This document shows, one piece after another, positions 12,150 through 42,083 of a DNA stretch of 43,817 bases (the stretch's first letter is position 1; every line of letters begins with the position of its first letter). Under the pieces are notes generated by a model. It had not been told where the DNA came from, ran no database searches, and saw only the letters and a program-made list of their open reading frames with translations. The position numbers and the translations under genes were made by a program. Origin of the DNA: Terriglobia bacterium (lineage in GTDB: Bacteria > Acidobacteriota > Terriglobia > UBA7540); contig JASHON010000143.1 of the NCBI GenBank assembly GCA_030041095.1, positions 1 through 43,817 of the forward strand. Direction: 5' to 3'.

Positions 12150-13280
12150 ATGCACTACCTACAAAAGCTCGACGAGACTGAAGCCAAGTACGACTCGCTC
12201 ACTGAGCAGCTCGGTGACACCCGCACGCTTGCAGACCCGTCTCTCTACCAGAAGACTGCTAAAGCTCACGCTGAGCTGCGGGAAGTGGTAGAGAAGTACC
12301 GCGAGTGGAAAGCTGTCAAAAAGAACTTGCACGAGACACGGGTTCTGCTTGGGGAATCCGGCTCCGATCCGGCCATGAAAGAGATGGCTCAGGAAGAGGT
12401 GGTGAGACTCGAGGGCCAAGCCGCTGACATCGAGGCTGAGCTGAAACTTCTGCTGCTGCCTCGCGACCCCAACGACGAAAAGAACGTTGTGCTCGAGATC
12501 CGCGCGGGAACGGGCGGCGATGAAGCCACTCTGTTCGCTCAGGAGATATTCCGCATGTATAGCCGCTATGCGGAAGGCCAGGGCTGGCGCGTCGAGCTGC
12601 TTTCAACCAGCTTATCGGCAGCGGGCGGGCTCAAGGAAGCCATCGCGCTCGTTGAAGGCCAGAAGGTTTACAGCAAGCTGAAGTACGAAAGCGGCGTGCA
12701 TCGCGTGCAGCGCGTTCCGGTGACGGAACAATCCGGGCGCATCCATACTTCCGCCGTGACCGTGGCGGTGCTGCCCGAGGCGGATGAAGTTGAAGTGGAA
12801 ATCGACCCGAAGGAACTTCGCATTGATACGTTCTGCTCTTCGGGTCCGGGCGGACAATCCGTAAACACCACTTATTCCGCGGTTCGCATCACCCATTTGC
12901 CCACGGGAATTGTGGTTTCATGCCAGGACGAAAAGTCACAAATCAAGAACCGCGCCAAAGCGCTGCGCGTGCTCCGCTCGCGCCTCTACGAGCAGAAGCT
13001 TAAGGAGCAGCAAAACCAGATTGTGGAGGAGCGGCGCTCCATGATCGGGAGCGGCGACCGGAGCGAAAAAATCCGCACCTATAATTTCCCGCAGAACCGC
13101 GTCACGGACCACCGCATCGGCCTCACCGTTCACCAGCTCGATCGCGTGATGGACGGCAAGCTCGATGAGGTGATCGACGCCTTGATCACCACTTTTCAGG
13201 CTGAAAAACTCAAACAGTCCGCCGTGCTGACACCGGATAGCGCTGGGAACGCAGCTCCCGTCAATCATGTTGGTCCGTGA
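12150..13280 (+). CDS. prfA: Peptide chain release factor 1 (RF1)
   Basis: Recognises UAA and UAG in the ribosomal A site and triggers hydrolysis of peptidyl-tRNA. The 376-residue protein has a coiled-coil N-terminal domain (about 1-100), the codon-reading tripeptide P190-V191-T192 inside [16 protein letters not shown], which is the RF1 P-x-T form rather than the SPF of RF2, and the catalytic GGQ at 234-236 in [12 protein letters not shown]. The conserved [15 protein letters not shown] helix follows. ATG 12150 is preceded by GGAAAGGTGA at a long spacing. The C-terminus overlaps prmC, whose product methylates the GGQ glutamine of this protein, a widely conserved pairing. Confidence 0.97.
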
Positions 13281-14157
13281 AGCGCTGGCGCAGGCAATGA
13301 GAATGCTTGTGGAGGCGGACGTGCCTTCGCCGGGCCTGGCCGCCGAATTACTCCTGATGCATACGCTCGAGTGCGAGCGCGGCGAGCTGCACTCAAACTC
13401 CGGCCGCGAGCTTTCCGCGGACCTTGCCCTGCGCTATTTCGACGACGTCACCGAACGCCTGACCGGCAAACCCACGCAGTATATCACCGGCCACCAGGAG
13501 TTCTGGGGGCTCGATTTTGAGGTCTCACCGGCTGTGCTCATTCCCCGGCCTGAAACAGAGTTACTGGTGGAAATCGTGATCGAACTCGCCCGGGGTGAGC
13601 CGTGCCGGATGGTGGACGCGGGTACAGGCTCGGGCTGCATCGCGCTGGCGCTCGCTTCGGAGCTTTCGCAAGCCGCCATTGATGCCGTGGATATCTCCGA
13701 AGAAGCGCTCCATGTGGCGCGGAGGAACGCAATGCGGCTGGGCCTCGCGGCTCGCGTCCGGTTTCACTGTGGTGACTGGCTCGAGCCATTCCTCCGTGAA
13801 AACGGAGAGGAATCATTCGATTTTGTGGTTTCCAATCCGCCCTACGTCTCCCAGGCGGAACTGCACTCGGTGCAGCGGGAGGTGCGGGATTTCGAGCCTC
13901 GCATCGCGTGGGGTGGATTGGTGGATGCGGAAGAAGTCTATCGCCGGCTCTTTGCTCAGGCGCAAAAGCTGCTCAAGCCCGGCGGATTTGCGGTGGTCGA
14001 GATGGGCTATTCGCAAAGCGCCGCCGTGACTAAGCTCCTGCGCCAAGGCTGGAGCGAGATCAGCGTCCGGGCTGACCTCGCCTCAATCCCTCGCGCCGTC
14101 ATCGCCCGAAAGTGGACAACCACGGGCCATGACGCCACAACGACCTCTGCCGGATAA
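13267..14157 (+). CDS. prmC: Release factor glutamine N5-methyltransferase
   Basis: SAM-dependent methyltransferase that modifies the GGQ glutamine of release factors. The 296-residue protein has the helical substrate-binding domain (about 1-75, with [13 protein letters not shown] and [11 protein letters not shown]), the SAM-binding [12 protein letters not shown] (about 116-128) and the catalytic NPPY at 190-193 in [13 protein letters not shown]. Its ATG overlaps the end of prfA by 14 nt, so it is translated together with its substrate. It is followed by a convergent radical SAM gene 53 bp away, with no obvious terminator between. Confidence 0.96.
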
Positions 14158-14210
14158 TTTGCCGGACTCCGCGAACCATTGTAAGCCACGCTGTGCTTTC
14201 AGAAAAGGAT

Positions 14211-16346
14211 TCATCTGCCAGCACTACCGCCGGCCGCGGCGGCGGCAAGAACCGACGGTTCGTGGTCGCCTTCGGCAGTGTCTCGATTGCCGTTGCCGCC
14301 TGCAGCCCCAATCTGGACGAGTTCCGCCTGCGGCTTCTTCAGAACCATTTCCTCGTAAATTGCCCGTACTTTCGCAGCTTCTTCCCAGGCTTTCTTGCGG
14401 CGCAGCCGATCTTCCTCCGCCGCCGTTGCCGGGACGTCGCTAGCCCTCACTTTGACGCGCGCCGCGTCCATTGGATCAATTTTCAAGGAGTGCTCGTAGG
14501 CCTCGAGGTCCACGCTCTTGCCTTTGGCGAAGATTTCGTGTTTACCGTGCGTTCGGTACCATTCGGCGACGGTCGCGTTCTTGTGCATGTTTTCGATGAT
14601 TTTCCGCCATCCCACTCCGGTGTTATAGGCGCAGAAAGAAATTTCACCCATTTGCGTCGCGTAGGGAATAATGCACATTTCCGTTCGCCGGAAATCGTAA
14701 TTGAAGAGGTCCTGGAACCACATGCCTCCAATGAACATGAAATTCCACGGATCCTGGCGCCGCTTGAGAGCATCCTCCAGCGAGCGTTCCGGGCCGAAGC
14801 TGCCGTAAGTCTTTTTGGCTTCATCTTCGCCTTTGGTCCAGTAGGTCTTATCGAACTTCCTCCAAATATCCACCAGGCTGAGCGAGGGCGGCGCTTCCGA
14901 GGGCCGATAGTTCTTGAGCAAAGCCAGAACCATCAGAATGCTCGAAAACTTCGATCCTCGCGCGGCATCAGTAATCTTCTGAGTATCGCTGACCAGGTTG
15001 GGAAGATTGATAAAGCGCGGAACTGGCGCCCACTCCCCGGTCTGCTTGTTGATCATCAGGGCCGTTCCCACACCGCAGTTGGGATGGCACCCGCAACTGA
15101 GGCTTCCCCATCCCGCTTCGCGTCCGTGCACCATATCGGCAAAATCGGAGAAGACGCTCAGCATCGTGATTGGGAACCAGTCATAGATGGGATCGATCTT
15201 GCCCACCTGCCGGCTCACATCGCGCGCCAGGTGCGAGAGCGTGTAGCGCTGCCGCATCCGCCGCTCCGGCGTGATATCCTCATCGCGACCTGTGAAGGAG
15301 ACCGGCTGAAAGCTGATGAATGTGATCTTGTTGGGATTCTCCATGGCAAACTTCACGATGGGGCCGACCTGGTCATCATTCACGGTATTCACGATGGTCG
15401 TTACCAGCATCACCTCGATGCCCGCCTCGTGGATGTTTTGAATGGCCCGCAGTTTCACGTCAAACAGGTTGCCCACCTGACGATGGCTGTTGGCGTCATT
15501 GCCGATCCCATCGAATTGAAGGTAAACGTATCGCAGGCCCGCTTCGAAGGCCCGGCGGCAGAATTCCTTGCTTTTGGCAAATTCGATGCCGTTCGTTGCG
15601 GCCTGGACGGTGTTGAATCCGCATTTCGTCGCATAGCGGATGGCATCAATGAACAGAGGGTGCATTGTGGGCTCGCCGCCCGAGAACTGCACGGATATCT
15701 GGCGCCGGGGCTTCACGCGGGTGGCATTGTCCAGGATTTCCGTGATGTCTTCCCAGCTCAACTCGTGGACGAAACCCACCTGGTTCGCATCCATGAAGCA
15801 AGGATCGCACATCATATTGCAACGGTTGGTGAGATCGACGGTCAGCACCGTGCCGCGTCCGTGCTTTACCGTGCTGGAGCCATGATGGTGCACGTGCTCG
15901 TCGGAATGGGCGCGGATGTCTCGTCCGGGGAAATTAGCCTCAATCCAGGAGAGAAACTTAGTGTCAACGGCCATCAAGTCCTCACAGCGGCCATGAACGG
16001 GGCAATCCTTCACCATCCATACCTGACCGTTACGCTCAACAATCTGAGCCTTGATCTCGCCCACCTTGGTATTCACCAAGTCTTTCCAGTCTTTCTCGCC
16101 TTCGAAAATGGCTTTTCGCGCCTCCTTCACGCATTCCGGGCAGAGCGAGTCCGTCGAGCGGGGCCAGCCGAGGATGGGACGCGTCTTTTTCCAGGACTTG
16201 AGCATCGGTTTATCCGACCATTGCGGCGTGACCGAAGGGTTGGGCCGGTACTTATTAAAAAACTGAATGGCATCGAATGCCACTCCCGCTGTATGACAAA
16301 GAGCTTCGTCAAAGAGCTTGGACAAGTGTTGATTCATCATTGGCAT
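14211..16346 (-). CDS. Tes-like radical SAM enzyme (candidate membrane-spanning lipid synthase)
   Basis: About 711-residue radical SAM protein of the MJ0619/tetraether-synthase-like class. Numbering from a TTG one codon upstream, it has an N-terminal cysteine group (C70-x2-C73, C116-P-x-H-G-x-C122), the radical SAM CNMMCDPC at 177-184, FSGGEPTMHP at 222-231, a second cysteine group SCGCHPNC (419-425), and a late CIIPYATQMGEISFCAYN (559-576) that resembles the conserved C-terminal block of archaeal homologues. Such extra cysteines fit the several metal centres known for Tes, which joins lipid tails through sp3 C-C bonds. No membrane segment is present. The tail (680-712) is Gly/Ala-rich. AAAGGAGG lies four bases before ATG 16346; ATG 16340 is also possible. 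Family membership is strongly suggested; the substrate is inferred. Confidence 0.8.
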   Translation of the reverse strand: MPMMNQHLSKLFDEALCHTAGVAFDAIQFFNKYRPNPSVTPQWSDKPMLKSWKKTRPILGWPRSTDSLCPECVKEARKAIFEGEKDWKDLVNTKVGEIKAQIVERNGQVWMVKDCPVHGRCEDLMAVDTKFLSWIEANFPGRDIRAHSDEHVHHHGSSTVKHGRGTVLTVDLTNRCNMMCDPCFMDANQVGFVHELSWEDITEILDNATRVKPRRQISVQFSGGEPTMHPLFIDAIRYATKCGFNTVQAATNGIEFAKSKEFCRRAFEAGLRYVYLQFDGIGNDANSHRQVGNLFDVKLRAIQNIHEAGIEVMLVTTIVNTVNDDQVGPIVKFAMENPNKITFISFQPVSFTGRDEDITPERRMRQRYTLSHLARDVSRQVGKIDPIYDWFPITMLSVFSDFADMVHGREAGWGSLSCGCHPNCGVGTALMINKQTGEWAPVPRFINLPNLVSDTQKITDAARGSKFSSILMVLALLKNYRPSEAPPSLSLVDIWRKFDKTYWTKGEDEAKKTYGSFGPERSLEDALKRRQDPWNFMFIGGMWFQDLFNYDFRRTEMCIIPYATQMGEISFCAYNTGVGWRKIIENMHKNATVAEWYRTHGKHEIFAKGKSVDLEAYEHSLKIDPMDAARVKVRASDVPATAAEEDRLRRKKAWEEAAKVRAIYEEMVLKKPQAELVQIGAAGGNGNRDTAEGDHEPSVLAAAAAGGSAGR

Positions 16347-16842
16347 CAATCCTCCTTTGCGGGGTTCGATCGATCAGGAAATTCAGATCCGGTTTTAGCG
16401 GTCTGGCGCTTCTGCAGTCAACACTTCTACGAGTCGTCGGCCCCGGGCCTGACTCAAACAGGCATTGAAGCTTGGGGAAACAGGGGAATTCAGTCGGAGA
16501 TAATGATGATAAAGTCCGGGTGAAGTATCTGCTCTCCATAACGCCGAGGCCCACAATCCGTCGAAGTGGTGTTTTCCTCGGGTCAGGCGATCGGCTGGCG
16601 TGACAGTTCGTTCCAGTCTCAGGGTGTGAGGTCACTCACGTCCGTTCCGCATCTCCAGACCAGACACGCGGGAAGCACCTCAACACCAAGACCGTCAGTC
16701 TGGCTCGCTTGGCCCTTTCCCCTCCCGGGGGCTTGTGCAACGCCAAGCCCCACGCTCAAGGAAATCGTCCTAACGTAACCAACTACATTTGTATTATATC
16801 ATGCTGCGAGATTTCTCCACCGCCAGAGGCAGCTTGGCTTGG
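16347..16842 (-). promoter_or_regulatory. Putative promoter and long 5' leader of the Tes-like gene
   Basis: On the minus strand TGATATAAT (16793-16801) is a consensus extended -10 element just after the carboxylesterase stop, with no good -35. Transcription from it would leave a leader of roughly 440 nt. The leader contains a perfect 8-bp hairpin (arms 16728-16735 and 16744-16751, 8-nt loop), which has no following U tract and so is not a simple terminator. No known riboswitch was recognised and no gene is supportable here. Confidence 0.4.
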
Positions 16843-18429
16843 CTAAGGCTGCGACGGCTCGACCAGATTGAGGCGCACTTTCCACGGGTCAATTTCCGGT
16901 TTGGCGCCTTGCTCCGTGAAGTTCATCAACTCATTGCCATCCGGCGTTATTCGAGACCAGCGAGGCAGTCCGGGACCGTTCGGATCGCCGGTGCGCGCGA
17001 AGTTCGCCCAGTATTCGTTCACCGTTCGCGCCATCGCCAGATCGTGGGCGGTAATGCTCTTGCCAAAGTTTGCCCACATGGACTTGCCAATGGTATCGAA
17101 GACGTAAGGAATCTCGGAAGAATGCGGGGCGCCGGGCAGTTTTCCTCGCATGCTGGCCGCCACATAGGAAAAACGATATTCGTAAGCCGGCTCCCCGGCT
17201 GCAGCCGCGTGTCGCGCCACAAAACGCGCCGGCTCGATCATATCGCGCACCATCGCGATCCGGCGTCCGACAGCGGTTACGCTGGTATCTCCTCCGGGAT
17301 CAAACGCCGCAAGCGCTTCAGTTCGCTGTGCGCCGAACGGCGCCAGCAGCCCTGCCAAAGTGTGCGCTCTGGGGAAGCCAAGATCGGCGCTGTTCGCTCC
17401 AACGACCACCGGAACCTTGGCCTCACCGCCCTGCTTGAATACTTCCTCCGGCGGCTGCACCATCAGCTTCCCATCGATCATGGGGCCGGAATACACATCT
17501 CGTTGCTGAAACATGCTGGCCATATTGAGGCCGTCCGTAATCTTTTCCGCCGGCAGCTTTCGCAAAGCGGCCAGAGCGGCCGCGCCCTCGCCTTGGATGC
17601 CCATGCGCCGCGCAAACGCGACGGCATCTTGTTCGGCGGAGCGTTGCCCGCGAGGACCCGGATGGTCGAGCGGAGGAGAGGGCAGAATGGTGTCGCGGCC
17701 GCCGCCGGATTCGATCATGGCTCTATCGAACAAACCGCGCGCGAGCGGGGACGTCAACAGAAAATTCACGGACATGCCTCCCGCCGATTCGCCGAAGATG
17801 GTAACTTGATGCGGATCGCCGCCGAAGGCAGCGATATTCTGCTGAACCCATTTCAGCGCTGCAATCTGGTCCATGAACGCGTAGTTGCCCACCAGCCCGC
17901 CTTGTTTGACCAAGGCAGGGAAAGCAAAAAATCCAAAACGGCCTACGCGATAGTTGAAGCTGACAAATACCAGGCCCTGGCGCGCGAAGGCCGCGCCGCT
18001 GTAAACCGCGGGCGATGAACCGCCATTCACGAATCCGCCGCCGTAAATCCACACCAGAACCGGCAAGTCCTGTGCGTGCTGCAACGGCGCCCAGACGTTC
18101 AAGTAGAGGCAATCCTCGCTCGGCGTGGTGCGCAATGGCGCGGCATCATTCGGAAACAGAAACTGCATGCAGTCATGCCCGTAATCAACCGCAGAACGAA
18201 CGCCCGCCCACGGCTCGACACGCTGAGGCGGCTGCCACCGCAGCTTTCCTACCGGAGGCGCGGCATATGGAATTCCTTTGAAGACCATCAATCCTTCTTT
18301 TGCCACACCCTGAACGCGGCCCGATTCAATCTGAATAACCGGAGACGGCGCATTCGCCGCCGCAGCCGGCAATACGGCCAAAAACAGGATGACCGTCAGC
18401 AGCGTTCCCAACCAACGAACGACTCTCAC
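16843..18429 (-). CDS. Secreted type-B carboxylesterase (para-nitrobenzyl esterase family)
   Basis: Alpha/beta-hydrolase of 528 residues predicted to cleave carboxylic esters outside the cytoplasm. Residues 1-25 form a Sec signal peptide (basic MRVVR, hydrophobic LLTVILFLAVL, cleavage near AAANA). Family markers are GIPYAAPPVGKLRWQPP (52-69), EDCLYLNVW (105-113), the oxyanion-hole YGGGF near 129-133, the nucleophile Ser215 in GESAGG, and a late His in GAPHSSEIPYVF. The lengths and order match the carboxylesterase type B family (PF00135). It is transcribed towards the Tes-like gene, but a promoter-like element separates the two. The natural substrate is unknown. Confidence 0.92.
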   Translation of the reverse strand: MRVVRWLGTLLTVILFLAVLPAAAANAPSPVIQIESGRVQGVAKEGLMVFKGIPYAAPPVGKLRWQPPQRVEPWAGVRSAVDYGHDCMQFLFPNDAAPLRTTPSEDCLYLNVWAPLQHAQDLPVLVWIYGGGFVNGGSSPAVYSGAAFARQGLVFVSFNYRVGRFGFFAFPALVKQGGLVGNYAFMDQIAALKWVQQNIAAFGGDPHQVTIFGESAGGMSVNFLLTSPLARGLFDRAMIESGGGRDTILPSPPLDHPGPRGQRSAEQDAVAFARRMGIQGEGAAALAALRKLPAEKITDGLNMASMFQQRDVYSGPMIDGKLMVQPPEEVFKQGGEAKVPVVVGANSADLGFPRAHTLAGLLAPFGAQRTEALAAFDPGGDTSVTAVGRRIAMVRDMIEPARFVARHAAAAGEPAYEYRFSYVAASMRGKLPGAPHSSEIPYVFDTIGKSMWANFGKSITAHDLAMARTVNEYWANFARTGDPNGPGLPRWSRITPDGNELMNFTEQGAKPEIDPWKVRLNLVEPSQP

Positions 18430-41054: not shown

Positions 41055-42083
41055 ATGAGCCGTACGAAACTCCGCAGAAGGATTCGTTTTATCAGCCGGC
41101 GGTTGCGCGAGCTTCGAGCCATCGCCAAAGGCATTATCTCGACGCGGCATCCTATCGACGTCCATCTCATACCGATGCGCCGCTGCAATCTCTCTTGCGC
41201 GTACTGCAATGAATACGATGATTTTTCGAAGCCCGTGCCGCTGCCCGTGCTGGCGGGTCGAGTGGCTAAGCTGGCGGCTTTGGGCGCCAGCATCATCACC
41301 ATCAGCGGCGGCGAGCCTCTGCTTCATCCCGAACTCGACGGCCTCATTCGGGCCATTCGGCAGCGTGGCATGCTGGCCGGGCTCATTACCAACGGATATC
41401 TGCTGACGCCCGATCGCATCCAGCGGCTGAACGGGGCTGGACTCGACCATCTTCAGATCAGCATCGATAACGTCATGCCCGATGACGTATCGAAAAAAAG
41501 TTTGAAGGTACTGGGCCAAAAGCTCAAGAATCTTGCGGACTATGCGGAGTTTCACGTAAACATCAATTCAGTGCTCGGCAGCGCCATTCACAATCCGCAG
41601 GACGCCATCGTCGTAGCGCAGCGCGCCCGCGAGCTTGGATTCACCACCACCGTTGGCATCATCCACGACCATTCAGGCCAGCTTGTGCCGCTGAGTGAGG
41701 AGCAATCTGCCATCTTCGAACAGATCGCGAGGATGAGCCGGCGCTCCTATTCGCGCTTTTATATTGCTTTTCAGAGGAATATCGCTCGCGGGCAGGAAAA
41801 CTCATGGCGGTGCCGCGCCGGCAGCCGCTATCTCTACATCTGCGAGGCCGGCCTCGTTCACTATTGTTCCCAGCAGCGCGGCTACCCGGGCATTCCGCTC
41901 GAACAGTATTCCCGCGCTCATCTTCAGCGCGAATATCTGACGCGCAAAGCGTGCGCTCCGCGGTGCACCGTCTCCTGCGTCCAAACCATCGGCTTGTTCG
42001 ATAACTGGCGCGATCCGCAAACACGCGAAGCTTTCGATCGCGTCCCCGCCGCCCAAACCGAGGTCTCCGGCTCGGAATGCTAG
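41055..42083 (+). CDS. Radical SAM protein with C-terminal cysteine-rich region
   Basis: Radical SAM enzyme of 342 residues. The cluster motif is CNLSCAYC (Cys44, 48, 51), followed by ISGGEPLLHPELDGLI (about 85-100), GLITNGYLL and LDHLQISIDNV. The C-terminal third carries Cys in WRCRAGSRYLYICEAGLVHYC and RKACAPRCTVSCVQ, consistent with a SPASM/Twitch-type auxiliary cluster. A basic, amphipathic N-terminus (KLRRRIRFISRRLRELR) could bind membranes. No RiPP precursor-like short gene was found nearby. It lies 34 bp after the LolA-like gene, so it is probably in the same operon. The substrate is unknown; a lipid, hopanoid or lipoprotein modification is speculative. Confidence 0.85.
   Translation: MSRTKLRRRIRFISRRLRELRAIAKGIISTRHPIDVHLIPMRRCNLSCAYCNEYDDFSKPVPLPVLAGRVAKLAALGASIITISGGEPLLHPELDGLIRAIRQRGMLAGLITNGYLLTPDRIQRLNGAGLDHLQISIDNVMPDDVSKKSLKVLGQKLKNLADYAEFHVNINSVLGSAIHNPQDAIVVAQRARELGFTTTVGIIHDHSGQLVPLSEEQSAIFEQIARMSRRSYSRFYIAFQRNIARGQENSWRCRAGSRYLYICEAGLVHYCSQQRGYPGIPLEQYSRAHLQREYLTRKACAPRCTVSCVQTIGLFDNWRDPQTREAFDRVPAAQTEVSGSEC

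Follow-up and report, generated by a model that had tools for sequence, protein, structure and literature searches.

Acidobacteriota carry two kinds of Tes homologue: the canonical bacterial Tes, here called class C, and a derived, widespread clade, here called A/B, split from it by its metal-ligand signature. A class A member is encoded in the window, the whole stretch of 43,817 nucleotides of Terriglobia bacterium DNA that we analyzed. Profile, structure search and phylogeny all firmly identify this protein as a Tes homologue. Its score, however, misses the curated Tes cut-off, and it has no ligands for one of the solved enzyme's four metallocofactors, which makes it a derived branch and not a straightforward Tes. 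By analogy with M. jannaschii (Mj) Tes, we give a probability of roughly 0.6 that it joins iso-C15 tails tail-to-tail, which would lead to iso-diabolic acid-type membrane-spanning lipids.

The lipid reading for acidobacterial Tes homologues, which the original prediction had mentioned, is indeed already published in outline (PMC8941075, PMC10087280). As far as the literature searched shows, what is new here is the two-class split, the loss of a cluster and its direction, an earlier cysteine gain and a duplication in the own genome. In the passages of open-licence PMC papers that were consulted, an acidobacterial Tes homologue that has lost the N-terminal cluster is nowhere described.

Family assignment of the window protein

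The ORF (P0001) is intact: it occupies positions 14211-16346 on the minus strand, encodes 711 aa and starts at an ATG that is preceded by a Shine-Dalgarno-like stretch, AAAGGAGG. The gene and its neighbours are:

12150-13280, release factor gene (Pfam)
13267-14157, PrmC gene (Pfam)
14211-16346, minus strand, class A Tes-like radical SAM protein of 711 aa that lacks the N-terminal-cluster ligands
16843-18429, carboxylesterase gene (Pfam)

A 776-aa ORF at 14193-16523 spans the whole gene in antisense and is taken as its mechanical shadow. The original prediction had named prmC and a carboxylesterase as neighbours and described a stand-alone gene. Pfam confirms both neighbours and the adjoining release factor gene; the gene does stand alone, and none of these three neighbours is lipid-related. 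Elsewhere in the window, at 41055-42083 on the plus strand, lies a gene for a second radical SAM protein (342 aa, no other Pfam domain at E 1e-6).

In the window protein, Pfam recognizes Radical_SAM and Zn_ribbon_HMPTM. The profile search that the original prediction had proposed gives Tes (NF045702) as the best NCBIfam model, at 317.5 bits (E 1.4e-94), which falls short of the Tes equivalog cut-off of 450 bits; TrsS (NF045646) comes second at 221.3 bits, under its cut-off of 490. The closest solved structure is M. jannaschii Tes (7tol/7tom, E 3.8e-58), and the next is MoaA (2.3e-8). An AlphaFold2 model, built from a 48-row alignment with rows 65-76% identical to the first row, reached a pLDDT of 65.8 and a pTM of 0.75, with pLDDT below 50 at residues 141-195, 417-423 and 544-593, i.e. 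around the active site. This predicted fold aligns to 7tom with Z 20.1 and rmsd 3.7 over 417 residues; among the entries listed, the best non-Tes match is MoaA, with Z 14.6 over 237 residues. Thus, the idea of a Tes-like radical SAM enzyme stands as far as homology goes and must give way where it would imply a canonical Tes (317 bits is below 450, and the N-terminal-cluster ligands are absent).

Could the protein instead belong with TrsS or with pterin- or arsenic-type radical SAM methyl transferases? The Zn_ribbon_HMPTM domain and the 221-bit TrsS match point that way, but the Tes model scores higher at 317 bits, the predicted structure matches most of the Tes fold, C-terminal part included, and in the outgroup tree described below A/B nests within bacterial Tes, with TrsS and a pair of haloarchaeal plasmid proteins outside. 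Such a placement is therefore highly improbable, and an identity as pterin methylase or TrsS itself is rejected on model scores and tree. The Pfam name seems to derive from an early pterin-methylase annotation, and the structure paper calls the pterin-methylase label first given to Tes incorrect (PMC9433317).

Metal-site ligands retained, lost and added

Classes A, B and C were defined by sequence score, not by motif. Class A comprises 117 ORFs, which give 99 unique rows besides the window protein; B has 6 and C has 39. ORFs shorter than 450 aa, exact duplicates and the window's copies (L002, L009) were left out of this 144-row count. Because the 99 A rows had been collected by their closeness to the window protein and so lean towards it, we fetched 40 extra rows, hand-chosen from a phylum-wide list of below-cut-off Tes matches; 27 of these score as A and 13 as B or other.

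According to the structure paper (PMC9433317), Mj Tes contains a rubredoxin-like Fe site (C9, C12, C33, H36), an N-terminal [4Fe-4S] cluster with C73, C77, C80 and one His as ligands, the radical SAM cluster and, in its C-terminal part, another [4Fe-4S] cluster whose labile ligand is Met439. Met439 is named in that paper; Cys338, Cys455 and Cys470 were assigned to the C-terminal cluster by conservation. Alignment to 7tol gave the equivalences below, and the CPEC coordinates were computed from residue numbers.

16131-16142, minus strand, CPEC (C69, C72), the first ligand pair of the rubredoxin-like Fe site, equivalent to Mj Tes C9/C12 (7tol alignment)
15993-16004, minus strand, CPVH (C115, H118), the second ligand pair of the rubredoxin-like site, equivalent to Mj Tes C33/H36
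15873-15890, minus strand, H153-x-H155-G-x-S158 in place of the Tes C73/C77/C80/His ligands of the N-terminal auxiliary [4Fe-4S] cluster
15798-15821, minus strand, CNMMCDPC (C176, C180, C183), the radical SAM [4Fe-4S] motif CX3CX2C
15075-15095, minus strand, CGCHPNC (C418, C420, C424); C424 is equivalent to Mj Tes C338, and C418 and C420 are extra
14721-14723, minus strand, Met542, equivalent to the labile cluster ligand Met439 of Mj Tes
14631-14675, minus strand, CIIPYATQMGEISFC (C558, Tyr562, C572), equivalent to Mj Tes C455, Y459 and C470, the C-terminal auxiliary cluster region

The cysteine groups are not chance, because they are near-invariant across the 99 unique class A rows: C69, C72, C115, C176, C180, C183, C418, C420, C424 and C558 are Cys in all 99, C572 is Cys in 98 (with one X), and H118 is His in 98 and Cys in one. 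All the cysteine groups listed in the original prediction are thus present and conserved, except that C121, the last Cys of its CPVHGRC, is not conserved in class A, where the conserved ligands of that stretch are C115 and H118. What its tally missed was an absent Tes group, the N-terminal [4Fe-4S] ligands, replaced here by H153-H-H155-G-S-S158: H155 and S158 occupy the columns of Mj C77 and C80, and the C73 column is a gap.

This replacement separates the classes sharply. The C3H motif of the N-terminal cluster is found in 39/39 C rows and in none of the 123 A and B ORFs; counted by rows, it is absent from all 105 A/B rows (99 A, 6 B) and from the 40 further rows (0/145). The HxHG.S stretch is present in 99/99 A and 6/6 B rows, and only three of the 40 further A/B rows vary from it, by one residue each (Ala for Gly156 or Ser158). 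At the same time, a CxC (C418, C420) appears beside the C-terminal cluster in A/B, in 99/99 A, 6/6 B and 40/40 further rows; among the 39 C rows, C420 is present in 24 and C418 in four. The rubredoxin, radical-SAM and C-terminal-cluster ligands are retained. In A and B, the equivalents of C338, C455, C470, Met439, Tyr459, Q268 and R275 are all kept, the Met439 position being M in 99/99 A, 6/6 B, 39/39 C and 40/40 further rows, and all 40 further rows keep C418, C420, C424, M542, C558 and C572. A change at Mj Arg210 seen in the alignment was set aside as a likely alignment shift, because R289 is one residue away.

Set against archaeal Tes / GDGT-MAS (MJ0619, 7tol/7tom), the window protein therefore shares the CxxC...CxxH rubredoxin-like site, the CX3CX2C motif, the fold (Z 20.1) and equivalents of Cys338/455/470, Met439, Tyr459, Gln268 and Arg275. 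It differs in being only 30% identical, in lacking the N-terminal [4Fe-4S] ligands C73/C77/C80/His, in two extra Cys before the C338 equivalent, in a 22-residue insertion in the rubredoxin domain, and in length, extending some 60 residues further at the N-terminus and being longer at the C-terminus too. An N-terminal amphipathic anchor helix was not evident in the window protein, because its hydrophobic moment does not clearly exceed that of shuffled sequences (124 of 2000 reach it); at the 5% level, 40/99 A rows and 0/6 B rows pass. Class C, of the same family and phylum, has a full set of ligands at each of the four metal sites (save for the rubredoxin part in one truncated row), unlike the window protein, which lacks the N-terminal set. 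TrsS (NF045646) has in common with the window protein the radical SAM core and a related N-terminal region; it forms a separate branch and, in the two rows looked at, keeps the N-terminal cluster motif that the window protein lacks.

Descent and distribution of the classes

Trees were computed on subsets of 59, 57 and 43 rows, the window protein and Mj Tes included, and descent was tested with the N-terminal-cluster columns removed. A and B form one clade (bootstrap/SH-aLRT 100/100), which is joined, again at 100/100, by three cluster-bearing C rows (L165, L168, L169). Monophyly of C is rejected (p-AU 2.4e-8); class C was set before the tree, and this test was picked after a first tree. A/B thus nests inside C, and therefore the cluster was, on these sequences, probably lost. 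The motif is carried by Mj Tes, by every one of the 39 C rows and by the closest sister rows, so the most economical explanation is that the N-terminal-cluster ligands were lost on the branch leading to A/B. That branch is long, at 2.22 changes per column. The first extra cysteine, C418, seems to have been gained before the cluster was lost, because the four C rows that have it (L165, L167, L168, L169) are the three sister rows of A/B plus L167, which shares the family code f13 with two of those sisters.

When TrsS and more distant relatives are added, A/B still lies inside bacterial Tes, with TrsS and two proteins of haloarchaeal plasmids outside it. A phylogeny, which the original prediction had proposed as a check, thus groups the window protein with Tes and not with TrsS. 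This outgroup tree holds one archaeal Tes row and two TrsS rows, with long branches flagged by the program, and, like the tree that gave the 2.22 branch, it carries SH-aLRT support only; five of the 15 outgroup loci (L177, L189, L195, L196, L198) gave no row after the filter. The N-terminal motif is present in 8/10 outgroup rows, among them both TrsS rows and all five of a group D; the rows without it, L187 and L190, come from haloarchaeal plasmids and are the two most distant.

Several of these relatives have features of their own. Group D is Tes/TrsS-like (L191-L194 and L197, from G114, G168, G096, G206 and G103, and L188, a Persicobacter plasmid) and shows the opposite pattern to A/B, with the N-terminal motif kept and S/T and D/E at the Cys455 and Cys470 columns. 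The TrsS matches of family f36 (L176, L178-L181) each contain one in-frame TGA, as would fit selenoproteins. L187, L189 and L190 (Salinirubellus, Mycolicibacterium and Halorarius plasmids) are distant radical SAM relatives with a methyltransferase-domain gene directly after them on the same strand.

Identity to Mj Tes is 29-33% for A rows and 37-46% for C rows, and the Tes cut-off follows the same division. Among the 39 C rows, 30 come from matches above the cut-off in the phylum scan, and two other C proteins scanned exceed it (589 and 554 bits), as the window protein at 317 bits does not; a B protein scanned (312 bits) and the own-genome paralogue (321) are both under it. This paralogue (G000 C124:5345-7378; L119:5330-7420) makes two class A genes in the own genome, which has no match above the cut-off; the two are 75% identical and belong to different subgroups of A. 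Of 61 related genomes, the own included, 57 have a match at least 58% identical to the window protein, some as fragments only, six have a B-like match (51-52%) and ten a C-like match (37-38%). Phylum-wide, 164 of 297 genomes match the Tes model at 1e-40, 32 of them above the cut-off, and 133 have no match at 1e-40.

The two classes can be close together. In f10, one family of the same class, all three C-bearing genomes of the phylum scan have A within about 7 kb of C, at about 0.8 kb (G299), 4 kb (G164) and 6 kb (G122; L170, L171, L172). In 11 other genomes where both are visible (nine in the related-genome set, two in the phylum set), A and C lie on different contigs; nearness is possible there too, because the assemblies are fragmented. 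In two f9 genomes (L126:6656-8293, L128:9815-11371), the class C Tes is directly followed, on the same strand, by a frame of 519-546 aa that contains a weak match, of radical SAM type, to the window protein.

Neighbour families at 77 class A loci revealed no informative conserved operon partner. The commonest, at 31/77, encodes a low-complexity protein with no Pfam match, sometimes more than 3 kb away, and explains nothing of function; all remaining families occur at no more than 10 of the 77 loci each, and the seven minor ones scanned were QueG, PNPOx-like, beta-lactamase-like, phosphoglucomutase, NifU-like, MoaA and LysE. At two loci (family f87; L173:6544-7674, L174:6309-7457), a gene of about 380 aa lies 54 bases upstream of the class A gene on the same strand; judged by eye, its product has a radical SAM-like CxxxCxxC. 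The own genome also holds a match to DUF2229 (G000 C195:11512-12207, L139, in a 1173-aa frame), which we take to be a domain of PlsA/Ger-type ester-to-ether enzymes. An ether-lipid claim from this match was dropped because DUF2229 also matches controls such as Lactococcus.

The two classes could simply be redundant brGDGT synthases that couple ether or ester iso-C15 lipids, the lost cluster reflecting neutral drift. The radical SAM and C-terminal cluster ligands retained in A/B, the nearness of A to C in the three f10 genomes and Edaphobacter, reported to make iso-diabolic acid lipid and some brGDGT with one homologue, would all fit. Yet several genomes retain both classes, and the very long A/B branch carries near-invariant new features (HxHG.S, CxC) and not scattered losses, which suggests a shifted task; we regard redundancy as quite unlikely.

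Proposed reaction and its meaning

For Tes, the substrate radical is described as stored on the C-terminal cluster in an S-C intermediate, in surroundings that include the labile Met439 and a conserved Tyr459, before a second SAM is used to close the bond (PMC9433317). The parts used in this scheme are, as judged from the alignment, those retained in the window protein. We envision that it joins the ends of two glycerolipid tails, acyl or alkyl, both iso-branched (iso-C15). SAM would be cleaved at the radical SAM cluster (C176/C180/C183), and the 5'-deoxyadenosyl radical would abstract a hydrogen from one tail's terminal methyl. The C-terminal auxiliary cluster (C424/C558/C572, with Met542 as labile ligand) would hold the resulting carbon radical through a C-S bond, until a second SAM cleavage generates a second radical, whose attack on the held carbon would close the C(sp3)-C(sp3) bond. 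This chemistry has been shown by others for M. jannaschii Tes; for the window protein we infer it by analogy, together with the iso-C15 substrate, the product and any role for the two added cysteines. The N-terminal cluster would then be dispensable for its reaction.

What is known of acidobacterial lipids is compatible with such an enzyme in part. Iso-diabolic acid is reported in subdivisions 1, 3, 4 and 6 and makes up 20-40% of fatty acids in 17 cultures of subdivisions 1 and 3 (PMC13274423). Bacterial Tes homologues were proposed for brGDGTs by Zeng et al., who list one in Edaphobacter aggregans, 32% identical to archaeal Tes, and others in Koribacter (42%) and Solibacter (40%). With the caveat that the reference sequence differs, the Edaphobacter protein looks like class A, because 32% fits the 29-33% of the A rows and not the 37-46% of C, and those of Koribacter and Solibacter look like, and probably are, class C. 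Because E. aggregans produces iso-diabolic acid lipid along with a little brGDGT, class A is the best candidate for iso-diabolic acid coupling. Also counting for this reading are the near-universality of class A around the window's genome (57/61), the nearness of A to C in all three C-bearing f10 genomes and the fact that Tes is both the best profile and the only close structure.

Against the coupling reading count the score below the Tes cut-off, the gene's lack of lipid neighbours and the 11 genomes with A and C on different contigs, as opposed to the three f10 genomes with A nearby. Solibacter, for whose brGDGTs Halamka et al. propose Tes homologues, also speaks against it, as it is described with brGDGTs, without detectable iso-diabolic acid, despite two named Tes homologues (PMC10087280). 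The experimentally tested bacterial enzyme, Mss of Thermotoga maritima (Sahonero-Canavesi 2022), has a proposed reaction that is alike, from fatty acyl tails to membrane-spanning lipids. This proven coupling is not transferable by orthology, because the T. maritima control genome has no match to the Tes model at E 1e-40.

The chemistry of A/B may itself have changed, because the N-terminal ligands were lost and two cysteines were added. A/B could have taken on a different radical-based modification of lipids (C5/C6 methylation, closure of rings or tetraether cross-bridging) or a different hydrophobic substrate. The branch of 2.22 changes per column, the exchange of one ligand set for two cysteines, the 22-residue rubredoxin-domain insertion and the longer C-terminus would suit such a move, which is nevertheless unlikely, given that the C-terminal cluster and the Met439 and Tyr459 equivalents are retained throughout and that the described ring and bridge enzymes, Grs and Gms, belong to other radical SAM subgroups (PMC11186832). 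Tail-to-tail coupling thus stays our preferred reading. A bolder version of it, which we put forward only tentatively, makes A/B a distinct enzyme that has lost the surface N-terminal cluster and is left with three metal sites; its radical-holding C-terminal cluster, rebuilt with the CxC, would be differently ligated (perhaps all-Cys or enlarged) and carry the intermediate, and the enzyme would serve as a dedicated acidobacterial iso-diabolic acid (tetraester) synthase, separate from the brGDGT-making canonical Tes.

The brGDGTs of bacteria are a widely used paleotemperature and pH proxy, and their makers and enzymes are poorly known. Surveys, in the parts consulted, tally 'Tes homologues' by one loose BLAST cut-off; the split in two by a sharp ligand signature and an order of descent provides a marker for the enzyme class in each genome. 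Comparing the two classes also offers a natural experiment on the function of each auxiliary metal site in Tes, where the structure paper calls it unclear what the remaining metallocofactors do (PMC9433317): should A/B prove to couple lipids, this chemistry can proceed without the N-terminal cluster. Finally, a separate A/B iso-diabolic acid synthase, if true, would explain why iso-diabolic acid is common and brGDGTs are patchy in Acidobacteriota.
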